A stretch of 64,000 bases of DNA from Magnetococcales bacterium (lineage in GTDB: Bacteria; Pseudomonadota; Magnetococcia; Magnetococcales; Magnetaquicoccaceae). Below the pieces are notes generated by a model, which was not told where the DNA came from, did no database searches, and saw only the letters and a list, made by a program, of their open reading frames with translations. This document shows, piece by piece, positions 29,060-40,610 of the stretch (position 1 is the stretch's first letter; every line of letters begins with the position of its first letter). The stretch spans positions 62,001-126,000 of the forward strand of contig JADFWP010000001.1 in assembly GCA_015234115.1 (NCBI GenBank), written 5' to 3'. The position numbers were made by a program, and so were the translations under genes.

Positions 29060-29598
29060 TGGCGGAAGCGGATGATTGAGTCCCGCGCCGCAAACCCGGC
29101 CCCCCCCTTCCTTTCCCATGACGAATGCGTTGCAACAGCCTCTCCCCGCCTGCCACGGCAAGGGCCAGAAATTCCTGCGGATTGGAACGACCCCGCCCGA
29201 CTCATCCGGAATCCTGTCCTCTTCGACAATTTTGCGTGCCATCTTTGGTCCTTGCCTGTTCCGTTTGATGAGCGTGCAGCGGTCCGGCATGGCAACCCAT
29301 TGAAAAAAAGTCAATTCTCCATTTCCTCGCCGCCTGCTCCCGCACTTCAGGACAAAAACAGATTATAAAATCATTTTTTAATATTATCTGTCAGCACATC
29401 ACCCGTGCTAAACTGACCAAATTTCGTTCTACACCAAAAACCGGATGCTCCCGGAATGGATCGTTTGTTGTGTTGCGTTCCATGTCGCAATGGATTGCAC
29501 GACATCCAGGGAATTCCAATTTTGTTTCATGCTTGCATCACGATGCATGCGGTGCGCTCCAGGCCGGATGGTCGGCAACCAATCAGGAGGTATTCAGG
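29060..29598. other. Intergenic region upstream of the hydrogenase operon
   Basis: No convincing gene is present. A minus-strand frame of 65 codons (29045-29242, starting MARKIVEEDRIPD, with AAGGA upstream) overlaps the kinase gene end and is too weak to call. From about 29310 the sequence becomes AT-rich. It contains an interrupted inverted repeat, ACAGAT (29358-29363) and ATCTGT (29386-29391), around an A/T core. This is a candidate operator or promoter region for hydB, whose start lies 208 bp downstream. Confidence 0.4.
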
Positions 29599-30651
29599 AT
29601 GAGTGCGTTTTTTGTCCACAAGGAGGCCGTGACGCAATGGATCCGGCATCTGGCGCGAAGCAATACCGTCTATTTCCCGCAACGTGCCGGTCAATCCGGT
29701 TTCCGCTTCAAACCGGTGAAAGAGACCACGGAAATCCAGTTTGACCGCTACCAACCGACACTCGCGCCTCCCGGAAAAAAACTGGCTCCCGCCGAAGAAC
29801 CCCTGTTCCGCTATCGCAAACAGGGCGACGCAGCGCCGGAACTGGTGCCCATCCTGGACCAGTCCCCCCGGATTCTGGCCGGAGTCCGCCCCTGCGATCT
29901 CAAGGGCATCCACCTGATGGACCGGGCCAACCGGGAAGGCCACGGCGATCCGCACTATCTGACCCGGCGCACCCACACCATCCTGATCGCGCATGACTGC
30001 CTGCAACCCTGTGACGACTCCTGCTTCTGTGATGCGGTGGGTTCCCTGGGCTGGCGGGACAATGCCGATCTTTTCCTCACCTCCCTGGAAGATCATATCC
30101 TGATCGAGGTCCGGACCGGTCCGGGGGAAACCCTGATCCAGGGGATGAATTTCCCGGTATGCACCGATGTCGCCGCCGTGAAATCCCGCGCCGAGGCGCA
30201 ACGCGCCCAACCGTTCGGGCGTCAGTTTCACGCCGATCTGGCCCGGATTCCCGCCATTATCGCCAGTCAATGGCAGGCCCCGGTCTGGGAAAAACAGGTG
30301 GAGCGTTGTTTCTCCTGCGGCAGTTGCAATCTGGTCTGCCCCACCTGCTATTGTTTCGATGTCCACGACGATTTTGACCTCACCGACCCCAACGCCGGTC
30401 AGCGCACCCGCACCTGGGATGGCTGCATGCTGCCCCAGTTCGCCGAAGTGGCCGGAGGACACAATTTCCGTCCCAATCCGGCGGCCCGGCAGCGTCACCG
30501 GGTCAAGCGCAAATTCGAATATCTCACCGAACGATTCGCCGAAGGAAGTTTTTGTACCGGCTGCGGTCGATGCGGTCGCCAATGCACGACCGATATCGAC
30601 ATTTTCAACATTGTCAACGATCTGATCGACCACGCGGAGGCGAACTCATGA
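29599..30651 (+). CDS. hydB: Sulfhydrogenase beta subunit, 4Fe-4S protein
   Basis: The 350-residue protein is the ferredoxin-like electron-transfer subunit of group 3b [NiFe]-hydrogenases. Two cysteine clusters near the C-terminus (CFSCGSCNLVCPTCYCFD and CTGCGRCGRQC) bind [4Fe-4S] centres. The N-terminal half has the GVRPCDLKGIHLMD motif of the Fer4_22 family. The start has AGGAGG 9 bp upstream. Its stop overlaps the hydG start (ATGA). The four structural genes run hydB-hydG-hydD-hydA. Confidence 0.93.
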   Translation: MSAFFVHKEAVTQWIRHLARSNTVYFPQRAGQSGFRFKPVKETTEIQFDRYQPTLAPPGKKLAPAEEPLFRYRKQGDAAPELVPILDQSPRILAGVRPCDLKGIHLMDRANREGHGDPHYLTRRTHTILIAHDCLQPCDDSCFCDAVGSLGWRDNADLFLTSLEDHILIEVRTGPGETLIQGMNFPVCTDVAAVKSRAEAQRAQPFGRQFHADLARIPAIIASQWQAPVWEKQVERCFSCGSCNLVCPTCYCFDVHDDFDLTDPNAGQRTRTWDGCMLPQFAEVAGGHNFRPNPAARQRHRVKRKFEYLTERFAEGSFCTGCGRCGRQCTTDIDIFNIVNDLIDHAEANS

Positions 30652-31514
30652 GTGCGACCCCCCACGCATCCGACCCGGCCATCGATCCGGCGCTCTATCT
30701 GCCCCGGATGGCCCGCATTCTGGAAGTGACCCCCCTGACCGCACGGGAAAAATATTTCAAGGTCGAACTCCCCGAACCCCTGGGACACCGCCCCGGACAG
30801 TTTGTCATGCTCTCTTTGCTCGGCGTGGGCGAAGCGCCCATCTCCATCTCCTGCGGTCCGCGCGCGGACAACATGCTGGAAATGGTGATCCGCGATGCGG
30901 GCAGTCTGACCCATGTGCTCCACGGTCTCAAACCGGGTCAACAGGTGGGGGTGCGGGGTCCGTTCGGTTCCGGCTTCAATCTCGATGATTTTTATGGCAA
31001 ACAGGTTCTCTGTGTGGTCGGCGGGTTGGGACTGGTGCCGATGCGCTCCCTGATCCAGCCAATTCTGGCGCAACTGGACCGTTTTGCCTCTCTCACCATC
31101 ATCAGCGGTTGTCGCTCGCCTGCCGAGGAGCTCTACCGCGACGAGGTGCGCGCCTGGGAGCGACTCGGACAGGAGACCGGCAAGGTCCGGGTGATCCGTC
31201 TGGTGGACCGCACCCAGAATCTGCCCTGGGATGGCCAGGTGGGACTGGTCACCGCCCCGCTCTCCTCCTTGCCGATCGATCCGGCCCAGACGGTGGTTGC
31301 CCTGTGCGGACCGCCGGTGATGTACAAATTCGTCCTCCTGGAACTGACCGCGCGCGGACTTTCCCATGCCCAGATCTTCGTGGACCTGGAGAGGCGCATG
31401 AAATGTGGCGTGGGCAAATGTGGTCATTGCCAGATCAACCACGTCTATTGCTGTCAGGAGGGGCCGGTGTTCCGGTTCGACCAGATCGCGCATCTCCCGG
31501 AGGCGTTGCAATGA
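30648..31514 (+). CDS. hydG: Sulfhydrogenase gamma subunit, FAD/NAD(P)-binding
   Basis: The 288-residue flavoprotein belongs to the ferredoxin-NADP reductase superfamily, DHODB/HydG branch. It has the FAD-binding GQFVMLSL and PISISC motifs and the NAD(P)-binding VVGGLGLVPMRSL. A C-terminal [2Fe-2S] site follows (MKCGVGKCGHCQINHVYCCQEGP). It passes electrons between NAD(P)H and the iron-sulfur subunits. It is coupled to both neighbours by ATGA overlaps. Confidence 0.93.
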   Translation: MSATPHASDPAIDPALYLPRMARILEVTPLTAREKYFKVELPEPLGHRPGQFVMLSLLGVGEAPISISCGPRADNMLEMVIRDAGSLTHVLHGLKPGQQVGVRGPFGSGFNLDDFYGKQVLCVVGGLGLVPMRSLIQPILAQLDRFASLTIISGCRSPAEELYRDEVRAWERLGQETGKVRVIRLVDRTQNLPWDGQVGLVTAPLSSLPIDPAQTVVALCGPPVMYKFVLLELTARGLSHAQIFVDLERRMKCGVGKCGHCQINHVYCCQEGPVFRFDQIAHLPEALQ

Positions 31515-32305
31515 AACCAAAAGTGGCCTTTTTTGACTTTGCCAGTTGCGAAGGGTGTCAACTCGCGGTACTCAACTGCGAAGATATCCTGTTGGATATT
31601 CTGGGGCTGGTGGATATCGTCGAATTCCGCGAGGCGATGTCGGAAACCGCGCCGCGCTTCGATGTGGCCTTCATCGAAGGGAGCATCAACCGGGAGCAGG
31701 ATGCCGAACGGCTGAGAGACATCCGCGCCCGCAGCACCTATCTGGTGGCCATGGGGGCATGCGCCTGCATCGGCAATGTCCAGGCCCGCTCCAACTTCAT
31801 CGCGCCTGCGGAAAATTTCCAGCGGGTCTATGGGGTCGAAGATCGCAACATGGTGCAGACCGATCCGGAATTCTGGCCGCTCTGGGCGCATACCCGGGTG
31901 CGGGCGGTGAAGGAGATCGTGCCGGTCGATTTCGAGTTGCGCGGCTGCCCGTTGGTGCCCGAAGAGTTCGTCCATCTGGTCAAGGCGCTGGTCACCGGCG
32001 CCACCCCCCGTTTTTCGACCCAGGCGGTCTGCGTCGAATGCAAGATGAACGAAAACGAATGCGTCTATGATCAAGGCGAGACCTGCATGGGTCAGATCAC
32101 CCGAGGGGGCTGCAAGGCGATTTGCATCACCAATGGCTATCGGTGCGACGGCTGTCGGGGCATTCTGCCGCATGCCAATCTGGCGGCCCATCACGGACTG
32201 CTACAGAGCAAGGGGCTTTCCGAACCCCAAATCACCAATCGTTACCGCCTGTTCTGTAGTGCGGAATCCCTCGGTCGGGTCGGGAGAACCGGACATGACA
32301 AATAA
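31511..32305 (+). CDS. hydD: [NiFe]-hydrogenase small (delta) subunit
   Basis: The 264-residue protein has the proximal-cluster motif CEGCQLAVLNC at 13-23 and GACACIGN near 77-84. RGCPL and a C-terminal cysteine set (CVECKMNENEC, GGCKAIC, CDGCRG) complete the ligands. It has no Tat signal, as expected for cytoplasmic group 3 enzymes. Its end overlaps the hydA start by 11 bp. Confidence 0.94.
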   Translation: MKPKVAFFDFASCEGCQLAVLNCEDILLDILGLVDIVEFREAMSETAPRFDVAFIEGSINREQDAERLRDIRARSTYLVAMGACACIGNVQARSNFIAPAENFQRVYGVEDRNMVQTDPEFWPLWAHTRVRAVKEIVPVDFELRGCPLVPEEFVHLVKALVTGATPRFSTQAVCVECKMNENECVYDQGETCMGQITRGGCKAICITNGYRCDGCRGILPHANLAAHHGLLQSKGLSEPQITNRYRLFCSAESLGRVGRTGHDK

Positions 32306-33602
32306 TGCCAAAACCTACACGATCGATGTGCATCACGTCACCCGCGTCGAGGGACATGGCAACATCCGCATCAACACCCGCGACGGGGTGGTGGAGGATG
32401 TGAAACTCTGCATCGTCGAGGCCAACCGCTTCTTTGAAAGTTTCACGCGGGGCATGACCCCGCATGAAATCCCCTGGGTGGTGGGTCGCATCTGCGGCAT
32501 CTGCTGCGTGGGCCATCAGCTTTCGGCCACCAAGGCGGTGGAGGATGCCCAGGGCATTGCGGTTTCGCCCCAGACCGTCTTGTTGAGAAAAATGCTCAAC
32601 GAATCCCAGTTTCTGCAAAGCCATGTGCTGCATGTCTATTTTCTCGCGGTGCCGGATTTCGTCGGCGCGCCGAGTGTCATTCCGCTGATCAAGACCCATC
32701 CCGAGGTGGTGAAGCGCGCCTTGCGGCTGAAAAAACTCGCCAACGACTACACCGAGGTGATGGGCGGTCGCACCATCCATCCCATGAGCAACACCCTGAA
32801 AGGATGGCGCCGGTTGCCCGATCTGGAACGGCTCGAACAGGTCCGCAATCGTCTGGCGGCAGCGGTGCCGGATCTGCTGGAGACGGTCGGGATCGTCAAG
32901 ACCCTGAAAATCCCCGGCTACGAACGGGAAACCGAATTCGTCTCCCTCAAGCATCCGGATGAATATGCCCTGTACGAAGGGGATGTCTTCAGTTCGGACA
33001 GCAAAAGCAGCGTGCCGGTGAGCGCCTATCGTTCGGTGACCAACGAATTCACCGTGGCCCACTCCACCACCAAATGGTCGCGCTGGCATCGGGATGCCTA
33101 TGCGGTCGGCGCCTTGGCGCGGGTCAACAACAACTTCGACCAGCTCCACCCCGAAGCCAAAAGTGTCGCCGAGACTCTGGGGTTGAAGGTGCCCTGTTAC
33201 AACCCCTACATGAACAATGTCGCCCAGGTGGTGGAGATCGTCCACTGCGCCTACAACAGTCTGGCGATGATGGAAACCGTGCTCAATGGCGGTTTGCAGG
33301 AAGAGGATATCCACCACACCGCGCAAGCGGGGCGCGGATTCGGTGCGGTCGAGGTGCCGCGCGGCATTCTGTTCCACGAGTATGCCTTCGACGAGGCCGG
33401 GCGCTGTTGCGATGCCAATGCCATCATCCCCACCAGTCAGAATGTCAACAACATCGAGCAGGACATGAAGGCGTTCGTGCCGTTGATGCTGCCCGAGATG
33501 TCCCAGGAGGAGCTGACGCTGCACATGGAGATGCTGTTGCGGGCCTATGATCCCTGCATCTCCTGTTCGGTCCACATGTTGAACATCGATTTCGTTGCGT
33601 GA
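32295..33602 (+). CDS. hydA: [NiFe]-hydrogenase large (alpha) subunit
   Basis: The 435-residue protein holds the Ni-Fe active site. Its four cysteine ligands lie in RICGICCVGH (L1) and DPCISCSVH (L2) near the C-terminus. The L2 His is followed by an eight-residue tail (MLNIDFVA), the peptide removed by a maturation protease. The motifs fit the group 3b, bidirectional NADP-linked type. It needs HypABCDEF for cofactor assembly, and most of those genes follow directly. Confidence 0.95.
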   Translation: MTNNAKTYTIDVHHVTRVEGHGNIRINTRDGVVEDVKLCIVEANRFFESFTRGMTPHEIPWVVGRICGICCVGHQLSATKAVEDAQGIAVSPQTVLLRKMLNESQFLQSHVLHVYFLAVPDFVGAPSVIPLIKTHPEVVKRALRLKKLANDYTEVMGGRTIHPMSNTLKGWRRLPDLERLEQVRNRLAAAVPDLLETVGIVKTLKIPGYERETEFVSLKHPDEYALYEGDVFSSDSKSSVPVSAYRSVTNEFTVAHSTTKWSRWHRDAYAVGALARVNNNFDQLHPEAKSVAETLGLKVPCYNPYMNNVAQVVEIVHCAYNSLAMMETVLNGGLQEEDIHHTAQAGRGFGAVEVPRGILFHEYAFDEAGRCCDANAIIPTSQNVNNIEQDMKAFVPLMLPEMSQEELTLHMEMLLRAYDPCISCSVHMLNIDFVA

Positions 33603-33621: not shown

Positions 33622-35253
33622 GTGGGTTGGACGGTGATCGGCGTTGGCAGTCGCGGGGCGCGGGATGATGCGATTGGATTGCTCCTGGTGGAGGCCCTGG
33701 CGCAATCCACGGCATCACCCGGCCTCACCCCCCTGTTGTGGGAGGATGCCGACGCCTTGACCGTGGCCCACGATCTGCTCGCCCTGACCGAACCGGTGCT
33801 GATCGTCGATTGTGCGAACATGGGGTTGGAGGGGGGTGCCTGGCGCCACTTCCGGCCTCGGGATGGAGAGCTGAAAATCACCCGCGATGCGCTCTCCACC
33901 CACGGACTGGGCATGGCCGAAGCCCTGGAAATCGCGTGTGGTCTGGGTTTTGACCATCCGGTGCGGGTGTTTGGCGTGCAACCATTCGATCTGTCGCCGC
34001 AACCGGGCCTGACCCCGGAGATGGCGCAGCGCATGCCGGAACTGCTGACCGGATTGCAAACGGTCGTGACACGCCTGCTGGCGGATTGGCCGCCTGAAGT
34101 GCCAGAGGTGCAGAGCGTGCTGCCGGTGCCGCTCCGCTTTGTCCGTCCGGTGTTGGCCCTGGGGATCGAAAGCAAGAACGCTCTGGCGTTTGGAGAGGGG
34201 ACATCGATCACCCTGTTTCAACCCTGTGGCGATCTGGCCGATCCAATGGCGCGCAGCGCCATGGAACAGGCGGTGACGGCCCTGTTGGACCATCCGATCC
34301 ATCCGCCCGAGGTGCTGGCGGTGGATCTGCATCCGGATCTTTATCCCTCGGTGCTGGGGCGTCGGCTGGCTGCCGAGCGTTCCCTGAAGCTGGTGGTGGT
34401 GCAGCATCATCAGGCCCACGCAGCGGCCTGCATGGCCGAACACGGTCTGCACGAAGCCCTGGCCGTGACCTGCGACGGCATGGGGTATGGTCTGGATGGG
34501 ACGATATGGGGCGCAGAACTGCTCCATCTGCACCCCCAGGGCTGGAGTCGCCTGGGATCTTTCGCGCCGATTCCCCTGCCGGGCGGGGATGCCGCCGTGC
34601 GCCAGCCGGTCCGCCAACTGCTCGCCCGTCTGCTGACCGCCGGAGTGACCATCGATGCCGCCTGGCAAGAGCGGCTCGGGGTGTCGCCGCTCGAATGCGA
34701 CCTCTGGAGCCGCCAGTGTGGCCAGGGGATTCATGCGCCCATGAGTCATGCCGCAGGACGGCTGTTCGATGCCTTTGCCGCCTGGCTCGGCTCCGCCCCG
34801 CGCTTCATTGCCCACGAAGGGGAGGCGGCCATGGGACTGGAGGCTGTGGCGCATGGCTGGCAGGGCAAACCGGAAGATCTGCCCCCTCTCCCCTTCGCAC
34901 TTCGGGAAGAGGCGGGCCTGATCCGGGTGGATTGGTCGCCGCTGTTTGCCGCGCTTCCGGTGGAGCCGGTGCCAGAAGCCGAACGTCCGGCCTGGGCGTA
35001 TGGGTTTCATCGCGCTTGCGCCGAGGCACTGGCAGCCATGGTGCAACAGGGGGTGCAAAAAACCGGTTTGCAAAGCGTGGTCTTGAGCGGTGGCGTCTTC
35101 CTGAACCGTCTGCTCAAGGCGTTATTGCTCGCCCGGTTGCAGGAATTGAATGTTCAACTCTTTGACCATCGGCGCCTCACGACCGGGGATGGCAGCCTGG
35201 CGGTGGGACAGCTCTGGGTTGCCGGAAGAAAGGATGATTCCTCATGTGTCTAG
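33622..35253 (+). CDS. Fusion of hydrogenase maturation protease and HypF-type carbamoyltransferase domain
   Basis: The 543-residue protein joins two maturation activities. Residues about 1-160 are an M52 protease like HybD/HyaD: VIGVGSRGARDDAIG (Asp where HybD has the nickel-ligand Glu16), LIVDCANMG (Asp62 equivalent) and THGLGMAEAL (His93 equivalent). Residues about 180-543 are the Kae1-like C-terminal domain of HypF: VLALGIESKNALAF, VVQHHQAHAAACMAEHG, CDGMGYGLDGTIWG, LSGGVFLNRLL, TGDGSLAVGQ. The HypF acylphosphatase, zinc-finger and YrdC domains are absent. The GTG start at 33622 begins right before the protease fold and has GGAG upstream; a TTG at 33595 overlapping hydA is possible. It overlaps hypC by 10 bp. 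Confidence 0.85.
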   Translation: MGWTVIGVGSRGARDDAIGLLLVEALAQSTASPGLTPLLWEDADALTVAHDLLALTEPVLIVDCANMGLEGGAWRHFRPRDGELKITRDALSTHGLGMAEALEIACGLGFDHPVRVFGVQPFDLSPQPGLTPEMAQRMPELLTGLQTVVTRLLADWPPEVPEVQSVLPVPLRFVRPVLALGIESKNALAFGEGTSITLFQPCGDLADPMARSAMEQAVTALLDHPIHPPEVLAVDLHPDLYPSVLGRRLAAERSLKLVVVQHHQAHAAACMAEHGLHEALAVTCDGMGYGLDGTIWGAELLHLHPQGWSRLGSFAPIPLPGGDAAVRQPVRQLLARLLTAGVTIDAAWQERLGVSPLECDLWSRQCGQGIHAPMSHAAGRLFDAFAAWLGSAPRFIAHEGEAAMGLEAVAHGWQGKPEDLPPLPFALREEAGLIRVDWSPLFAALPVEPVPEAERPAWAYGFHRACAEALAAMVQQGVQKTGLQSVVLSGGVFLNRLLKALLLARLQELNVQLFDHRRLTTGDGSLAVGQLWVAGRKDDSSCV

Positions 35254-35528
35254 CGGTTCCCATGCAGCTCGTGGCCATGGGTGCGGATGAAACCGGCACC
35301 GTGGAACTGGATGGCATTCAACATACCATCGGCTTGCTGCTGATCGAAGATCCAAAAATTGGCGAGTATCTGCTGATCCATGCCGGCTATGCCATCGAAC
35401 GGCTCGACTGCGCCGAGGCCGAAGCCCGTCTGGCCCTGTTTCGCACCCTGGCCGAAATTCAGCGTCAGGAGACGGGTCAGGAGGTCTCCCTGGTGGCCCC
35501 GGCGCGCAAACCGGGGGAGCGGGCATGA
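35244..35528 (+). CDS. hypC: Hydrogenase maturation factor HypC
   Basis: The 94-residue chaperone starts with the essential MCLAVP motif (Cys2 binds the Fe(CN)2CO unit and the large subunit) and has the conserved LIHAGYAIERLD strand. It forms the cofactor-assembly complex with HypD. It overlaps both the preceding fusion gene and hypD. Confidence 0.95.
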   Translation: MCLAVPMQLVAMGADETGTVELDGIQHTIGLLLIEDPKIGEYLLIHAGYAIERLDCAEAEARLALFRTLAEIQRQETGQEVSLVAPARKPGERA

Positions 35529-36634
35529 ACTACATCGATGGTTTCCGCGACCCGGATGCCGCAGCCCGCTATCGGGTGACCCTGGCGCAACTGGGCCAGG
35601 AGCTGGCGGATCAGGGAGGCCGCGCCTGTTTCATGGAGGTCTGCGGCAGCCATACCATGGCCATTGCCCGTTTTGCGATTCGGGATTTTCTGCCGCCTGC
35701 GGTGACGCTGGTCAGTGGACCGGGCTGCCCGGTGTGCGTGACCGATCCGGGCTACATCGATGCGGCCATTGAACTGGCCGGGCAGGGAAAAATCATCGTC
35801 ACCTTCGGCGACATGATGCGCGTGCCCGGCTCCCGCTCCACTCTGGCCAAAAGCCGGGCCGCAGGGGGCTGGATCGAAAGCTGTTACTCTCCGGTCACGG
35901 CGCTGGAGTTGGCCCGCGCCCATCCGGAACGGGAAATCGTCTTTCTGGCCATTGGCTTTGAAACCACGGTAGCCCCGGTGCTGGCCATGCTCGATACCGC
36001 GCGACGCAGCGCGCTCCCCAACCTGACGCTGCTGGTCGCGTTCAAGCTGGTGCCGCCGGTGCTGGCCGCGCTGATCGCGGATCCGGAACTGAAAATCGAT
36101 GGCTTTCTCTGTCCGGCCCATGTCAGCGCCGTGATCGGGGCCAACGCCTATCGACCCTTTGCCGAAAACCACGGGGTGGCGTGCGTGGTGGCCGGGTTCG
36201 AGCCTTTGGATATTCTTTATGGAGTGGAGGGGCTGCTGCGCCAGAAGATCGCCGGACGCGCCACGGTGGACAATCAATACAACCGGGTGGTGCGACCCGA
36301 GGGCAATCCGGTCGCGCAACGGCTCATGGACCACTACCTGATGCCCGCCGCCGTCTCCTGGCGCGGACTGGGCGTGATCCCGGCCAGCGGTTTGGTGTTG
36401 CGCCCCGAATTTGCCCAATTCGATGCCGAGCAGCGCCATCAACTGACCCTGCAACCCGGTCGTCCCAATCCCCACTGCCTGTGCGGCGAGGTGCTGAAGG
36501 GCAAAATCCGTCCTGCGCAATGCGCCTTGTTCGGGGTGGCCTGCCATCCGGACCATCCGCTCGGTCCCTGCATGGTCAGCTCCGAAGGGAGTTGCGCGGC
36601 GGAATATCGTTTCGCTTCCGGAGTCACACCATGA
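35525..36634 (+). CDS. hypD: Hydrogenase maturation factor HypD
   Basis: The 369-residue scaffold protein carries MEVCGSHTMAIARF, GPGCPVCVTD and the C-terminal cysteine cluster for its [4Fe-4S] centre (CLCGEVLKG, CALFGVACHP, GPCMVSSEGSC). It builds Fe(CN)2CO together with HypC and HypE. The start overlaps the hypC stop (ATGA) and its stop overlaps the hypE start. Confidence 0.96.
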   Translation: MNYIDGFRDPDAAARYRVTLAQLGQELADQGGRACFMEVCGSHTMAIARFAIRDFLPPAVTLVSGPGCPVCVTDPGYIDAAIELAGQGKIIVTFGDMMRVPGSRSTLAKSRAAGGWIESCYSPVTALELARAHPEREIVFLAIGFETTVAPVLAMLDTARRSALPNLTLLVAFKLVPPVLAALIADPELKIDGFLCPAHVSAVIGANAYRPFAENHGVACVVAGFEPLDILYGVEGLLRQKIAGRATVDNQYNRVVRPEGNPVAQRLMDHYLMPAAVSWRGLGVIPASGLVLRPEFAQFDAEQRHQLTLQPGRPNPHCLCGEVLKGKIRPAQCALFGVACHPDHPLGPCMVSSEGSCAAEYRFASGVTP

Positions 36635-37641
36635 ATCACGATCACATCCTGCTCGCCCATGGGGGTGGAGGGCGACTCTCTCACCAGTTGATCACCCAGG
36701 AGATCCTGACGCGCTTCGGTTCCGGCCCATTGGCCTCGCTGCCCGATGCCGCCGCACTGGAACTGGACTCCTCCCGGATTCGTTTCACCACCGATGGATT
36801 CGTGGTGCAGCCGCTGGAATTCCCTGGCGGCAATATCGGGGATCTGGCGGTGCACGGGACGGTCAATGATCTGGCCGTGAGCGGCGCCCGACCGCGCTGG
36901 CTCTCCCTGGGGCTGATTCTGGAAGAGGGATTGCCTTTGACCCTGTTGCGCCGGGTGTTGGATTCGGTCCAGCGGGCCGCAGCGGATTGCGGGGTGATCG
37001 TGGCCACCGGTGATACCAAGGTGGTGCGACGCGGCCAATGTGACGGACTCTATATCACCAGCTCCGGCATTGGCGAGGCCCTGCCTGGCTTCGATCTGCG
37101 GCTGGATCGGATTCTGCCCGGTGATCGCATTCTGGTAAGCGGTCCGCTTGGGGATCATGGCGCCGCGATCCTGGCTGCGCGGGAAGGGTTTGAAAATTTT
37201 CACACGCCGGTCAGTGATTCACGCCCGGTCCATCGACTGGTGGAGGGGGTGGCCTCCCTGGCCTGGGGAATCCGCTTCATGCGCGATCCGACCCGAGGCG
37301 GATTGGCCACGGTCTTGAATGAAATGACGACCGGGCAGGATTTTGGTATGCTGATTCGCGCCCGCGAGCTGCCCTTTTCGCCGGGCACGGCAGCCCTGGC
37401 GGAGATGATGGGACTGGATCTGCTGCATGTGGCGTCGGAAGGGTGTCTGGTGATGGTCTGCGCGGCGGAGGTGGCCGAGGCGATCCTGGAATTCTGGCGC
37501 ACTCTGCCCGAGGGAGAAAAGGCCCGCGCAATCGGCGTGGTCACGGCGGATCAGGCGGGTCGGGTGATCCTGGAAAGCGCCATTGGCGGTCTGCGGGTGG
37601 TGGATGTGCCCAGTGGTGAACTGTTGCCAAGGATCTGCTGA
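36631..37641 (+). CDS. hypE: Hydrogenase maturation factor HypE
   Basis: The 336-residue AIR-synthase-like protein begins with LAHGGGGRLSHQLI and contains VHGTVNDLAVSGARP. It ends in PRIC, whose C-terminal Cys receives the carbamoyl group from HypF and is dehydrated to thiocyanate. The start overlaps hypD (ATGA) and the stop overlaps hypA (TGATG). The partner HypF domain lies in the upstream fusion protein. Confidence 0.96.
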   Translation: MNHDHILLAHGGGGRLSHQLITQEILTRFGSGPLASLPDAAALELDSSRIRFTTDGFVVQPLEFPGGNIGDLAVHGTVNDLAVSGARPRWLSLGLILEEGLPLTLLRRVLDSVQRAAADCGVIVATGDTKVVRRGQCDGLYITSSGIGEALPGFDLRLDRILPGDRILVSGPLGDHGAAILAAREGFENFHTPVSDSRPVHRLVEGVASLAWGIRFMRDPTRGGLATVLNEMTTGQDFGMLIRARELPFSPGTAALAEMMGLDLLHVASEGCLVMVCAAEVAEAILEFWRTLPEGEKARAIGVVTADQAGRVILESAIGGLRVVDVPSGELLPRIC

Positions 37642-37985
37642 TGCACGAACTCAACATTGCCATGGCCCTGGTGGAACAGATCCGGGAATTCATGGTGAAA
37701 GAAAACGCCCACGAACTGATTTCGGCCACAGTGGCGGTCGGCGCCTTGAGTGGCGTGGAAGCGGATGCTTTGGCCTTTTGTTTTCCTCTGGCCATCGAAG
37801 GCACGCCGATGCAAGGCGCCCAACTGCATCTTGAACCGGTTCCGGTGCGGCTCCGTTGCCGGTCATGCGAGGCCAAATCGCAACCCGAAGAGAGCCACAT
37901 GCTCCACTGTGTGGTCTGTGGTTCTGGTCAGGTGGAGATCGTCACAGGCCATGATCTGATTTTGCAATCCCTGGAGGTGAGCTGA
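37641..37985 (+). CDS. hypA: Hydrogenase nickel incorporation protein HypA
   Basis: The 114-residue protein begins MHE (His2 binds nickel) and has a zinc site from CRSC near residue 75 and CVVC near 92. Together with HypB it delivers nickel to the large subunit. The spacing to hypB is one base. Confidence 0.94.
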   Translation: MHELNIAMALVEQIREFMVKENAHELISATVAVGALSGVEADALAFCFPLAIEGTPMQGAQLHLEPVPVRLRCRSCEAKSQPEESHMLHCVVCGSGQVEIVTGHDLILQSLEVS

Positions 37986-37986
37986 A

Positions 37987-38784
37987 ATGTGCCAAGATTG
38001 TGGTTGTGACAGTGGACCCCCTTTGCATTCCCACCCCCATGCGCATGGGACTCCCCATGATCACCCTCATGATCATGGCCACGATCACACCCATGATCAC
38101 ACCCATGATCACACCCATGATCACACCCATGAGCGGACCATTCTGCTCGAAACCAGGGTGATGGCCAAAAATGCCGCCCTGGCCGAACAGAACCGCCAAT
38201 GGCTGGCCGCGCGCAGGATTCGGGCCATCAACCTGATCTCCTCTCCTGGCGCGGGCAAGACGTTGCTTCTGGAGCGCACCCTGGAGTTGCTGCGGGATCG
38301 ACTGCCTTGTGCGGTCCTCGTGGGCGATGTGCAAACCGATCACGATGCCAGACGTCTGCAAGGCAAGGGGGCGCGGGTCTGTCAGATCGAAACCCGCACC
38401 TCGTGTCATCTCGATGCCCGACAGGTGGGTCAGAGGCTGCCGGAACTCTTTCCCGTTGGTGGGCCGGAACGGTTGCTGATCATCGAGAATGTCGGCAATC
38501 TGGTCTGTCCGGCGGCCTTCGATCTGGGGGAAGATCTGAAAATCGCCCTGCTTTCGGTGACCGAAGGCGAGGACAAGCCGGTGAAATATCCGACTCTGTT
38601 TCATCAGGCGCCGGTGGTGGTGATCACCAAGGTCGATCTGATGCCCCATCTGGACTGGAAAATGGAGCGCTGCCGGGCGGCCATTCTTCAGGTGCGACCC
38701 GATGCGCGGATTTTTGAGTTGAGTGCCACCACAGGTGTCGGCATGACGGCGTGGATTGAATTTCTTGAGCAATGGGTGGCCTGA
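37987..38784 (+). CDS. hypB: Hydrogenase nickel incorporation GTPase HypB
   Basis: The 265-residue GTPase has the N-terminal CQDCGC nickel-binding motif. A long histidine-rich stretch (about 15-50, HxHDHTHDH pattern) can store nickel. The G domain follows (P-loop SSPGAGKT, GDVQTDHDA, TKVDLM). The His-rich stretch is encoded by short tandem repeats. The next gene, a histidine kinase, begins two bases after its stop. Confidence 0.96.
   Translation: MCQDCGCDSGPPLHSHPHAHGTPHDHPHDHGHDHTHDHTHDHTHDHTHERTILLETRVMAKNAALAEQNRQWLAARRIRAINLISSPGAGKTLLLERTLELLRDRLPCAVLVGDVQTDHDARRLQGKGARVCQIETRTSCHLDARQVGQRLPELFPVGGPERLLIIENVGNLVCPAAFDLGEDLKIALLSVTEGEDKPVKYPTLFHQAPVVVITKVDLMPHLDWKMERCRAAILQVRPDARIFELSATTGVGMTAWIEFLEQWVA
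38083..38130. repeat. Four tandem 12-bp repeats in hypB
   Basis: The unit gatcacacccat occurs four times in a row without change. Each copy encodes Asp-His-Thr-His, extending the nickel-binding tract. Such repeats can vary in number by slippage without shifting the frame. Confidence 0.93.
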
Positions 38785-38785
38785 A

Positions 38786-40243
38786 ATGACCCGACCCGCT
38801 GCCAACTCCGCCCCTCCTTTTTTCGAGTGGGATACCAGCATCTGCGAAAAGGGACTGCGCACCACCGAGATGTCCGAGCGGGGCTGGTGGTTCATTCGCA
38901 CCCGTTGGAACGCGACCGCCCTCTGTTTTCTCGGCGCCCTCTGGTCGGTGCTGCCCCCGCTGGAAGCCACACCGCGCTTCGTGATCGATTATCGGTTCTT
39001 TCTGGTGGTCGGCGTTCTGCTCGCGGCCAGCAATCTGCTGTATGCCAACATGGCGAAATACCTGATCATCGGCCAACCCTCCAAGAAAAGACTCTGCCGT
39101 TTCTTAAGCTTGCAGGTGTTGACCGATTATTTCAACCTGTCGATCCTCACCTACGGATTGGGCGGGATCGAAACGCCGATCATGATCCTGTTTCTGCCGC
39201 ACATTATTTTGTTGACGCTATTCTTTTCCCGTTCTTACAGCTTTGTGATGACCTGGGTCGGAATTTTCTTCGCGAGCCTGCCGATCTTGCTGGAATACAT
39301 GGGTTGGGTGCCGATCGTTTCCATTTTCGATATTCTGCACAAGACCAACGGCATCAGTTCCAATCTGGTGATCACGTCGAGCTACATTCTCGGGATCACC
39401 GCCGCTTTTCTCATTTGCTGGTATCTGGTCGGAGACATCACGGCGATTCTTCTGACCCGCGAACGGCAGTTGGAGGAGGCTTTCAACCGCCTGCAACTGC
39501 TGGATCACGAAAAATCCCAGATCACCTTGCGGGCCACCCACGAACTGAAGGCGCCATTTGCCGCCATCAAAAGCTACGTCTACACACTGCGGGATGGCTA
39601 TTGCGGCGTGCTGCCGGACAAGGCGCAACAGGTGATCGAGCGGATCGGGGATCGCTGCGACCTGCTGATGGAAAAAATCTCGGATATCATTCATCTGAGC
39701 AATCTGCGCACCGCCACGCCCGCCAATGCGGGGCTGACCGAAAACGATCTGGCCGCCGTTGTGCTCAAGGAGGTCGAGGATGCCCGCCTGATCGGCAAGC
39801 CGCGCCGCGTGGAAGTTTTATTGCCAGCCGATCCGCTCCCCTGCCCGATCATGGCCTCCAGAGAACATCTCTCCACCATGATTTCCAACCTGTTGCGCAA
39901 TGCGGTCAACTACTCCAATCCGGACGGCGTGGTGGAAGTGACGCTGGAACCTCTGGAGCAGGAAGTGGTGCTGAAAATCCGGGATCACGGCATCGGGATT
40001 CCCGAGGAGCACCTCGACAAGATTTTCGAGGAACATTTTCGTTCCAACAATGCCGTCCGTTTCAATCCAAACAGCAGTGGCATGGGACTGGCGCTGGTGC
40101 AGGAGATCGTCCGTCTGCACGATGGCACCATCCAGGTTTCCAGCCAACTTGGTGCGGGGTCCTGTTTTACCGTGACCCTGCCCCGTTTACCCAATCCATC
40201 CAAACGAGGAGACGAACATGGCCAGAATTCTGATCATCGATGA
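38786..40243 (+). CDS. Membrane histidine kinase linked to the hyp operon
   Basis: The 485-residue kinase has about six hydrophobic segments (about 48-215) as a membrane sensor region. A coiled coil and HisKA-like domain follow (RATHELKAPFAAIKSYVYTL, His near 255), then an HATPase domain (LLRNAVNYSNPDG, DHGIGIPEE, SGMGLALVQEIVRLHDG). The start lies two bases after hypB, which suggests coupling with the hydrogenase operon. The signal is unknown; hydrogen turnover, redox state or nickel would fit the context. Its end overlaps the response regulator gene by 26 bp. Confidence 0.92.
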   Translation: MTRPAANSAPPFFEWDTSICEKGLRTTEMSERGWWFIRTRWNATALCFLGALWSVLPPLEATPRFVIDYRFFLVVGVLLAASNLLYANMAKYLIIGQPSKKRLCRFLSLQVLTDYFNLSILTYGLGGIETPIMILFLPHIILLTLFFSRSYSFVMTWVGIFFASLPILLEYMGWVPIVSIFDILHKTNGISSNLVITSSYILGITAAFLICWYLVGDITAILLTRERQLEEAFNRLQLLDHEKSQITLRATHELKAPFAAIKSYVYTLRDGYCGVLPDKAQQVIERIGDRCDLLMEKISDIIHLSNLRTATPANAGLTENDLAAVVLKEVEDARLIGKPRRVEVLLPADPLPCPIMASREHLSTMISNLLRNAVNYSNPDGVVEVTLEPLEQEVVLKIRDHGIGIPEEHLDKIFEEHFRSNNAVRFNPNSSGMGLALVQEIVRLHDGTIQVSSQLGAGSCFTVTLPRLPNPSKRGDEHGQNSDHR

Positions 40244-40610
40244 CGACCAGGACATCACCGACAACCTGACCATGATCCTGGAAGGGATTGGTCATCAGAT
40301 CACCGTCAAGGCCGATACCGATCACCTGCTGGAAGATGTCCGCGCTGTCCATCCGGACCTGATCATCCTCGACATCATGATGCCCGAAGATTCCCAGGCC
40401 GGCTTCAAGGCCGCCCGTCTGCTCAACCAGGATGAAGCGATCGGCAAAATTCCGGTGTTGATTCTTTCGGCGGTCAATCAGCGCAGCAAGCTCTCCTTCG
40501 GTTTTTCAGAAAGTGATATCAGCACAGACTTTATGCCTGTTGAAGCCTTCATTGAAAAACCGGTTGAACCAAAAATTCTGATTGAAAAAATCAACAGTCT
40601 TCTCTCCTGA
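40218..40610 (+). CDS. Single-domain response regulator
   Basis: The 130-residue receiver has IDDDQD, the phospho-Asp in LIILDIMMPEDS and EKPVEP with the conserved Lys. It has no output domain, so it must act through protein contact or a phosphorelay. A good ribosome-binding site (AGGAG) lies inside the end of the kinase gene. It is the cognate partner of the preceding kinase. Confidence 0.92.
   Translation: MARILIIDDDQDITDNLTMILEGIGHQITVKADTDHLLEDVRAVHPDLIILDIMMPEDSQAGFKAARLLNQDEAIGKIPVLILSAVNQRSKLSFGFSESDISTDFMPVEAFIEKPVEPKILIEKINSLLS

Follow-up and report, generated by a model that had tools for sequence, protein, structure and literature searches.

A hydrogenase maturation protease fused to the Kae1-like half of HypF in Magnetococcales, and the question of its carbamoyl-adenylate source

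In the textbook account of HypF, the unstable carbamate and carbamoyl-adenylate intermediates stay inside one protein. A gene in a group-3b-like hydrogenase operon, related to the sulfhydrogenase type, of a Magnetococcales MAG raises a testable question that we regard as its main value: what is the source of carbamoyl-adenylate when a HypF is without its own synthase? The window analyzed is a 64,000-nucleotide stretch of contig JADFWP010000001.1, and all positions are given within it.

The gene (33622–35253, forward strand) encodes a protein of 543 amino acids and reads as one open frame from a GTG start at 33622, with an AAGGGG-type ribosome-binding sequence upstream, to a stop codon at 35251–35253; the frameshift between its two parts that the preliminary description of this DNA had named as fatal to its reading is absent. 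The first part is an M52 hydrogenase maturation endopeptidase domain (33628–34077, residues ~3–152), delimited by TIGR00072, the HycI Pfam family and ligand alignment. It is followed by a linker of variable length (34078–34131, residues ~153–170), which appears as a gapped column block in the alignment, and by the Kae1-like carbamoyltransferase half of HypF (34132–35226, residues ~171–535), delimited by PF17788 and PF22521 and by column analysis. The protein scores 70.8 bits against NCBIfam hydrog_prot TIGR00072 (cut-off 47.45), and thus passes the M52 family score; against the Pfam families HycI/M52 (PF01750), HypF_C and HypF_C_2 it scores 33.4, 72.3 and 196 bits (cut-offs 23, 23 and 27 respectively). 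The match to hypF TIGR00143 covers only model positions 387–739 of 741, at 207.6 bits versus an equivalog cut-off of 466.1. Pfam and NCBIfam profiles find no acylphosphatase, zinc-finger or YrdC domain on the fusion protein, in agreement with what had been read from the sequence at the outset. An AlphaFold2 model built from five sequences only (pLDDT 73) gives E. coli HypF as its top Foldseek match, and is too weak for judging domain orientation.

Five further Magnetococcales genomes (G031, G028, G042, G043 and G045) carry this fusion, with 52–80% identity over the whole length, and it is therefore not an assembly error; the single open frame and the five orthologous fusions together rule out either a frameshift or an assembly error as its source. 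Both halves show purifying selection, with dN/dS of 0.17–0.26 against three relatives. The fusion of M52 to the Kae1-like C-terminal part of HypF, first proposed in the preliminary description, is thus real and conserved, and is a new architecture made of known parts; a literature search for an M52-HypF_C fusion found no report.

Other members of the order carry these parts in other arrangements. Three relatives (G019, G001 and G003) have separate, adjacent genes for M52 and a truncated HypF, and in G001 a single TGA lies between the two genes, with the ATG of HypF_C 8 nt later. HypF_C is present without M52 in two genomes inside the fused clade (G036 and G047), and M52 without HypF_C in related operons of G025, G004 and G032. 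The HypF_C tree forms a ladder from full HypF (G025, G035 and the Acidobacteria contig L149) through the adjacent pair to the fused clade, which has eight rows and support of 98/91; the lower rungs are weakly supported (80/51 and 95/54), and in a larger tree the truncated Magnetococcales rows, 11 in all, group as a single clade (SH-aLRT 98). In L149 a full-length HypF, which runs off the end of the contig, comes immediately after an M52 gene; in a deltaproteobacterial contig (L148) with matching synteny, a HypF coding region broken by frameshifts comes after M52. The history that these sequences make most probable is that an ancestral full-length HypF shed its acylphosphatase, zinc-finger and YrdC half, that a single fusion followed, and that M52 was then lost twice; the fusion most likely arose by loss of the stop between two adjacent genes.

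The fusion gene is flanked by hydA and hypC, in the order hydB-G-D-A, fusion, hypC-D-E-A-B, with all genes on the forward strand. Upstream are a hydB-like Fe-S subunit (29572–30651; NF040829/NF040833) and, by profile match, a hydG-like FAD/NAD subunit (30648–31514), a hydD-like small subunit (31508–32305) and a hydA-like large subunit (32295–33602). Downstream, likewise by profile match, are hypC (35244–35528), whose start overlaps the 3' end of the fusion gene by 10 nt, hypD (35525–36634), hypE (36625–37641), hypA (37641–37985) and hypB (37987–38784). The HypB N-terminus carries a long His-rich tract (HDHTHDH..., encoded at 37987–38110) and a role in nickel storage is likely. hydA is the sole PF00374 gene found in the window genome, which is 77% complete, and its product has a tail after DPCxxCxxH, as M52 precursors do (DPCISCSVH-MLNIDFVA). 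HypE ends in PRIC, with the carbamoyl acceptor cysteine kept, and every copy read retains both this terminus and the HydA tail.

Are both halves of the fusion protein still enzymes? In the protease half, alignment shows conserved metal ligands at D16 (33667–33669), D63 (33808–33810) and H94 (33901–33903), matching the nickel ligands Glu/Asp16, Asp62 and His93 of HybD/HycI. The preliminary description had remarked on Asp in place of the usual Glu; the Asp is there, but it also occupies the Glu16 position in 37 of 37 relatives and in E. coli HycI, and we rejected it as a special feature since it is the normal state of the M52 family here and of HycI. This half resembles HycI-type proteases and those of group-3b-like operons in scoring over the cut-off, in its Asp/Asp/His ligands and in adjoining a HydA with a cleavable tail. 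It differs in being fused to HypF_C, whereas the relatives found outside Magnetococcales are unfused. The protease role has very probably been kept, and HydA is its likely substrate.

The HypF half is similarly well preserved. Its Kae1 ligands H262 (34405), H266 (34417), D285 (34474) and D523 (35188) correspond to H475, H479, D502 and D727 of E. coli HypF and are invariant across fused, adjacent, stand-alone and full HypFs in the alignment, and column analysis shows that nearly all conserved Kae1 residues are retained. The canonical protein (E. coli, PDB 3tsp; TIGR00143) has the same metal ligands and is 33% identical in the Kae1-like half by structural alignment; an internal tunnel and the acylphosphatase, zinc-finger and YrdC domains set it apart from the fusion. 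Conservation of this kind makes it very probable that the transferase role is kept, with carbamoyl transfer to HypE, the likely substrate.

With HypF_C and HypF_C_2 matches, no N-terminal domains, and a hyp operon encoding a HypE that ends in PRIC, the fusion belongs with the Kae1-only, or HypF1-type, proteins. HypF_C occurs in frames of ~380–440 amino acids well beyond Magnetococcales in a survey of 398 genomes of the phylum, including three complete single-contig genomes (G090, G123 and G245). The form is already known from the published HypF1 of Cupriavidus necator (394 aa), and the fusion is a new variant of it. Like the fusion, HypF1 has only the Kae1-like domain, with the same ligands and neither His nor Tyr at position 418 (E. 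coli numbering), and lies in a hyp operon that also encodes an intact HypE; unlike it, HypF1 has no protease fusion and stems from a separate truncation event in the tree. C. necator also differs from many of the genomes found here in having a full-length HypF2 (807 aa). HypF1 was called truncated by its authors, who proposed that it needs carbamoyl adenylate, and it is seemingly inactive anaerobically (PMC9100943); an attempt to complement an E. coli hypF mutant with it was unsuccessful, and no clear HypF1 band was seen there (PMC5350229).

Position 418, in the motif S416-x-H418-x-G-D, separates the two forms. Of 75 full-length HypFs, 71 have His here and four have Tyr, and neither residue is found in any of 34 Kae1-only HypFs; the fusion has Pro201 (34222–34224) at this site. 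Two rows were left out of the count. The 'short' HypF of G290 is a frameshifted full HypF, and the 616 aa frame of G073 combines a decayed HypF with HypC beside an IS3-type transposase. In the latter (contig L134, 7945–9792) an acylphosphatase start is joined to a YrdC end, followed by Kae1 and then HypC in frame; the transposase lies upstream, HypB is frameshifted and His418 is kept, which has the appearance of recent decay. The Kae1-only state arose about five times independently in Pseudomonadota (99-row tree, the decayed case set apart), and His/Tyr418 was lost in all five truncations; a sign test on independent pairs for loss at 418 against truncation gives p = 0.06, the minimum possible with five pairs. 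This pattern suggests that residue 418 may take part in transfer from the YrdC site, and it provides a one-residue marker by which Kae1-only HypFs can be recognized in genomes.

The altered 418 site also bears on the proposal, made in the preliminary description, that the C-terminal domain has acquired a new role in gating proteolysis by cofactor status; on this reading it would no longer carbamoylate HypE but would sense HypE or the cofactor and gate the protease. One half acts at the start of maturation and the other at its end, and their linkage could couple them, but the 418 change is found equally in unfused Kae1-only HypFs, both catalytic sites are kept, with all Kae1 metal ligands and nearly all conserved residues of the HypF half, and each half occurs apart from the other (two genomes of the fused clade carry HypF_C but no M52, and others carry M52 but no HypF_C). 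Moreover, a sensor-only half would leave seven genomes that are 95–100% complete without a recognizable HypE carbamoylator, even though the PRIC cysteine is kept. We consider gating very improbable, and the proposal is not borne out.

Could the missing HypF parts be encoded elsewhere? The zinc-finger domain zf-HYPF was not found in a genome-wide search of the window genome (77% complete), nor in any of the 11 Magnetococcales genomes with a Kae1-only HypF, seven of which are 95–100% complete; 10 further members of the order gave a hit in the same search. It is likewise absent from 20 of 20 Kae1-only genomes checked outside Magnetococcales. A split hypF was therefore rejected, since zf-HYPF is not found in the Kae1-only genomes searched, and no full hypF is present in the relatives that are 95–100% complete. 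That a full-length HypF or a detached N-terminal half was missed in the assemblies, with the HypF_C of the fusion being accessory, draws on the incomplete state of the window genome and on C. necator, which has both HypF1 and HypF2. However, zf-HYPF and an extra HypF_C are both absent from the seven nearly complete genomes of the order and from the complete G090, G245 and G123, and the search does detect both in relatives; this reading is close to refuted and we give it hardly any weight. The preliminary description had named, as an outcome that would overturn it, a full hypF elsewhere combined with a domain lacking its ligands, and both the genome-wide result and the intact Kae1 ligands go against this.

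Attention thus turns to the free YrdC-family proteins. One or two genes of this family are present in each of the 11 Kae1-only genomes of the order, and a tree identifies their products as orthologs of TsaC and YciO. Such orthologs also occur in relatives that have no HypF, and none groups with the YrdC domains of HypF. In one other genus there are three YrdC domains in genomes with full HypF and two in those with truncated HypF. A YrdC survey of Kae1-only genomes found no dedicated supplier gene, and we rejected a dedicated third YrdC gene, as the free TsaC and YciO copies do not track truncation. A recruited acylphosphatase was rejected as well, its distribution being patchy: it is in some fusion genomes, and searches of G031 (97% complete) and G045 (99% complete) gave no such domain. 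G169 has a HypF1-like Kae1-only gene (contig L120, 8373–9506) that is the only recognizable hyp gene in the 18 kb examined there, and a single YrdC-family protein (347 aa) in the genome; with no hyp genes nearby, its single-YrdC state was not used against YciO as a universal supplier.

On balance we favor the interpretation that the fusion is a single chain with two functional maturation enzymes and that carbamoyl-adenylate is supplied in trans. The HycI-type, nickel-checking N-terminal half would cut the 8-residue tail of the adjacent HydA after nickel insertion, and the HypF_C half would move carbamoyl from carbamoyl-adenylate to HypE. With the N-terminal half of HypF lost, carbamoyl-adenylate would be made in trans and then diffuse or be handed over, in the manner of TsaC, which delivers threonylcarbamoyl-AMP to TsaD (PMC9654439). 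A housekeeping YrdC-fold enzyme, TsaC or YciO, would be the most probable supplier. By analogy with t6A synthesis, in which a separate YrdC-fold protein makes an acyl-adenylate and a Kae1-fold protein transfers it, although substrate, acceptor and family differ, we put a YrdC-type supplier at about even chances; a supplier non-homologous to YrdC is possible. The earlier suggestion that another protein supplies carbamoyl-adenylate is supported by the intact Kae1 ligands and the lack of a full hypF in the nearly complete relatives. Against supply in trans, carbamoyl-adenylate is labile and is channeled within full HypF (PMC6022934; PMC12134894), which would make such a route wasteful. The unsuccessful complementation by C. 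necator HypF1, its seeming anaerobic inactivity, the lack of a dedicated supplier gene and the incompleteness of the window genome also weigh against it.

An alternative is that Kae1-only HypFs use other chemistry or a non-YrdC enzyme, for example taking carbamoyl phosphate or another donor directly at the Kae1 site. This would agree with truncation bringing no extra YrdC protein, with no acylphosphatase domain being found in the two genomes named above, and with the repeated loss of a residue that is invariably His or Tyr in channeling HypFs; but the Kae1 metal site is unchanged and published Kae1-family carbamoyltransferases use adenylate from a YrdC-like domain (PMC9654439, PMC6022934), and we think a different donor unlikely. 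For Kae1-only HypFs as a whole, the fusion included, we lean slightly toward a carbamoyl route outside the known HypF channel, either TsaC or YciO in trans or another donor, with the loss of His/Tyr418 marking the switch about five times. Entire lineages apparently build the [NiFe] cofactor while lacking the HypF parts that make carbamate and carbamoyl-adenylate, and it follows that these intermediates can be supplied from outside or that there is another route to the cyanide precursor.

The fusion itself is a natural construct uniting the first and last maturation activities. It probably serves mainly for co-expression and stoichiometry and not for a new regulatory activity; as G036 and G047 have HypF_C without M52, fusion carries no obligatory advantage.

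The surrounding genes vary more widely. The fusion operons of one genus (L089, L090 and L091, from G043, G045 and G042 respectively) are without hypA and hypB, so that genes for nickel insertion must be elsewhere or replaced. In contig L094 (G003 C51), M52, HypF_C, hypA and hypB form a group, and the 20 kb examined there contains neither hypCDE nor hydrogenase subunits. In the window, the hyd/hyp genes are immediately followed (38756–40610) by genes for a membrane histidine kinase and a response regulator. The pair is similarly placed in nearly all Magnetococcales clusters (L087–L091, L093, L094, L098, L100 and L101), persists in clusters that lack hypA/hypB or every hyp gene, and is probably tied to hydrogenase control.
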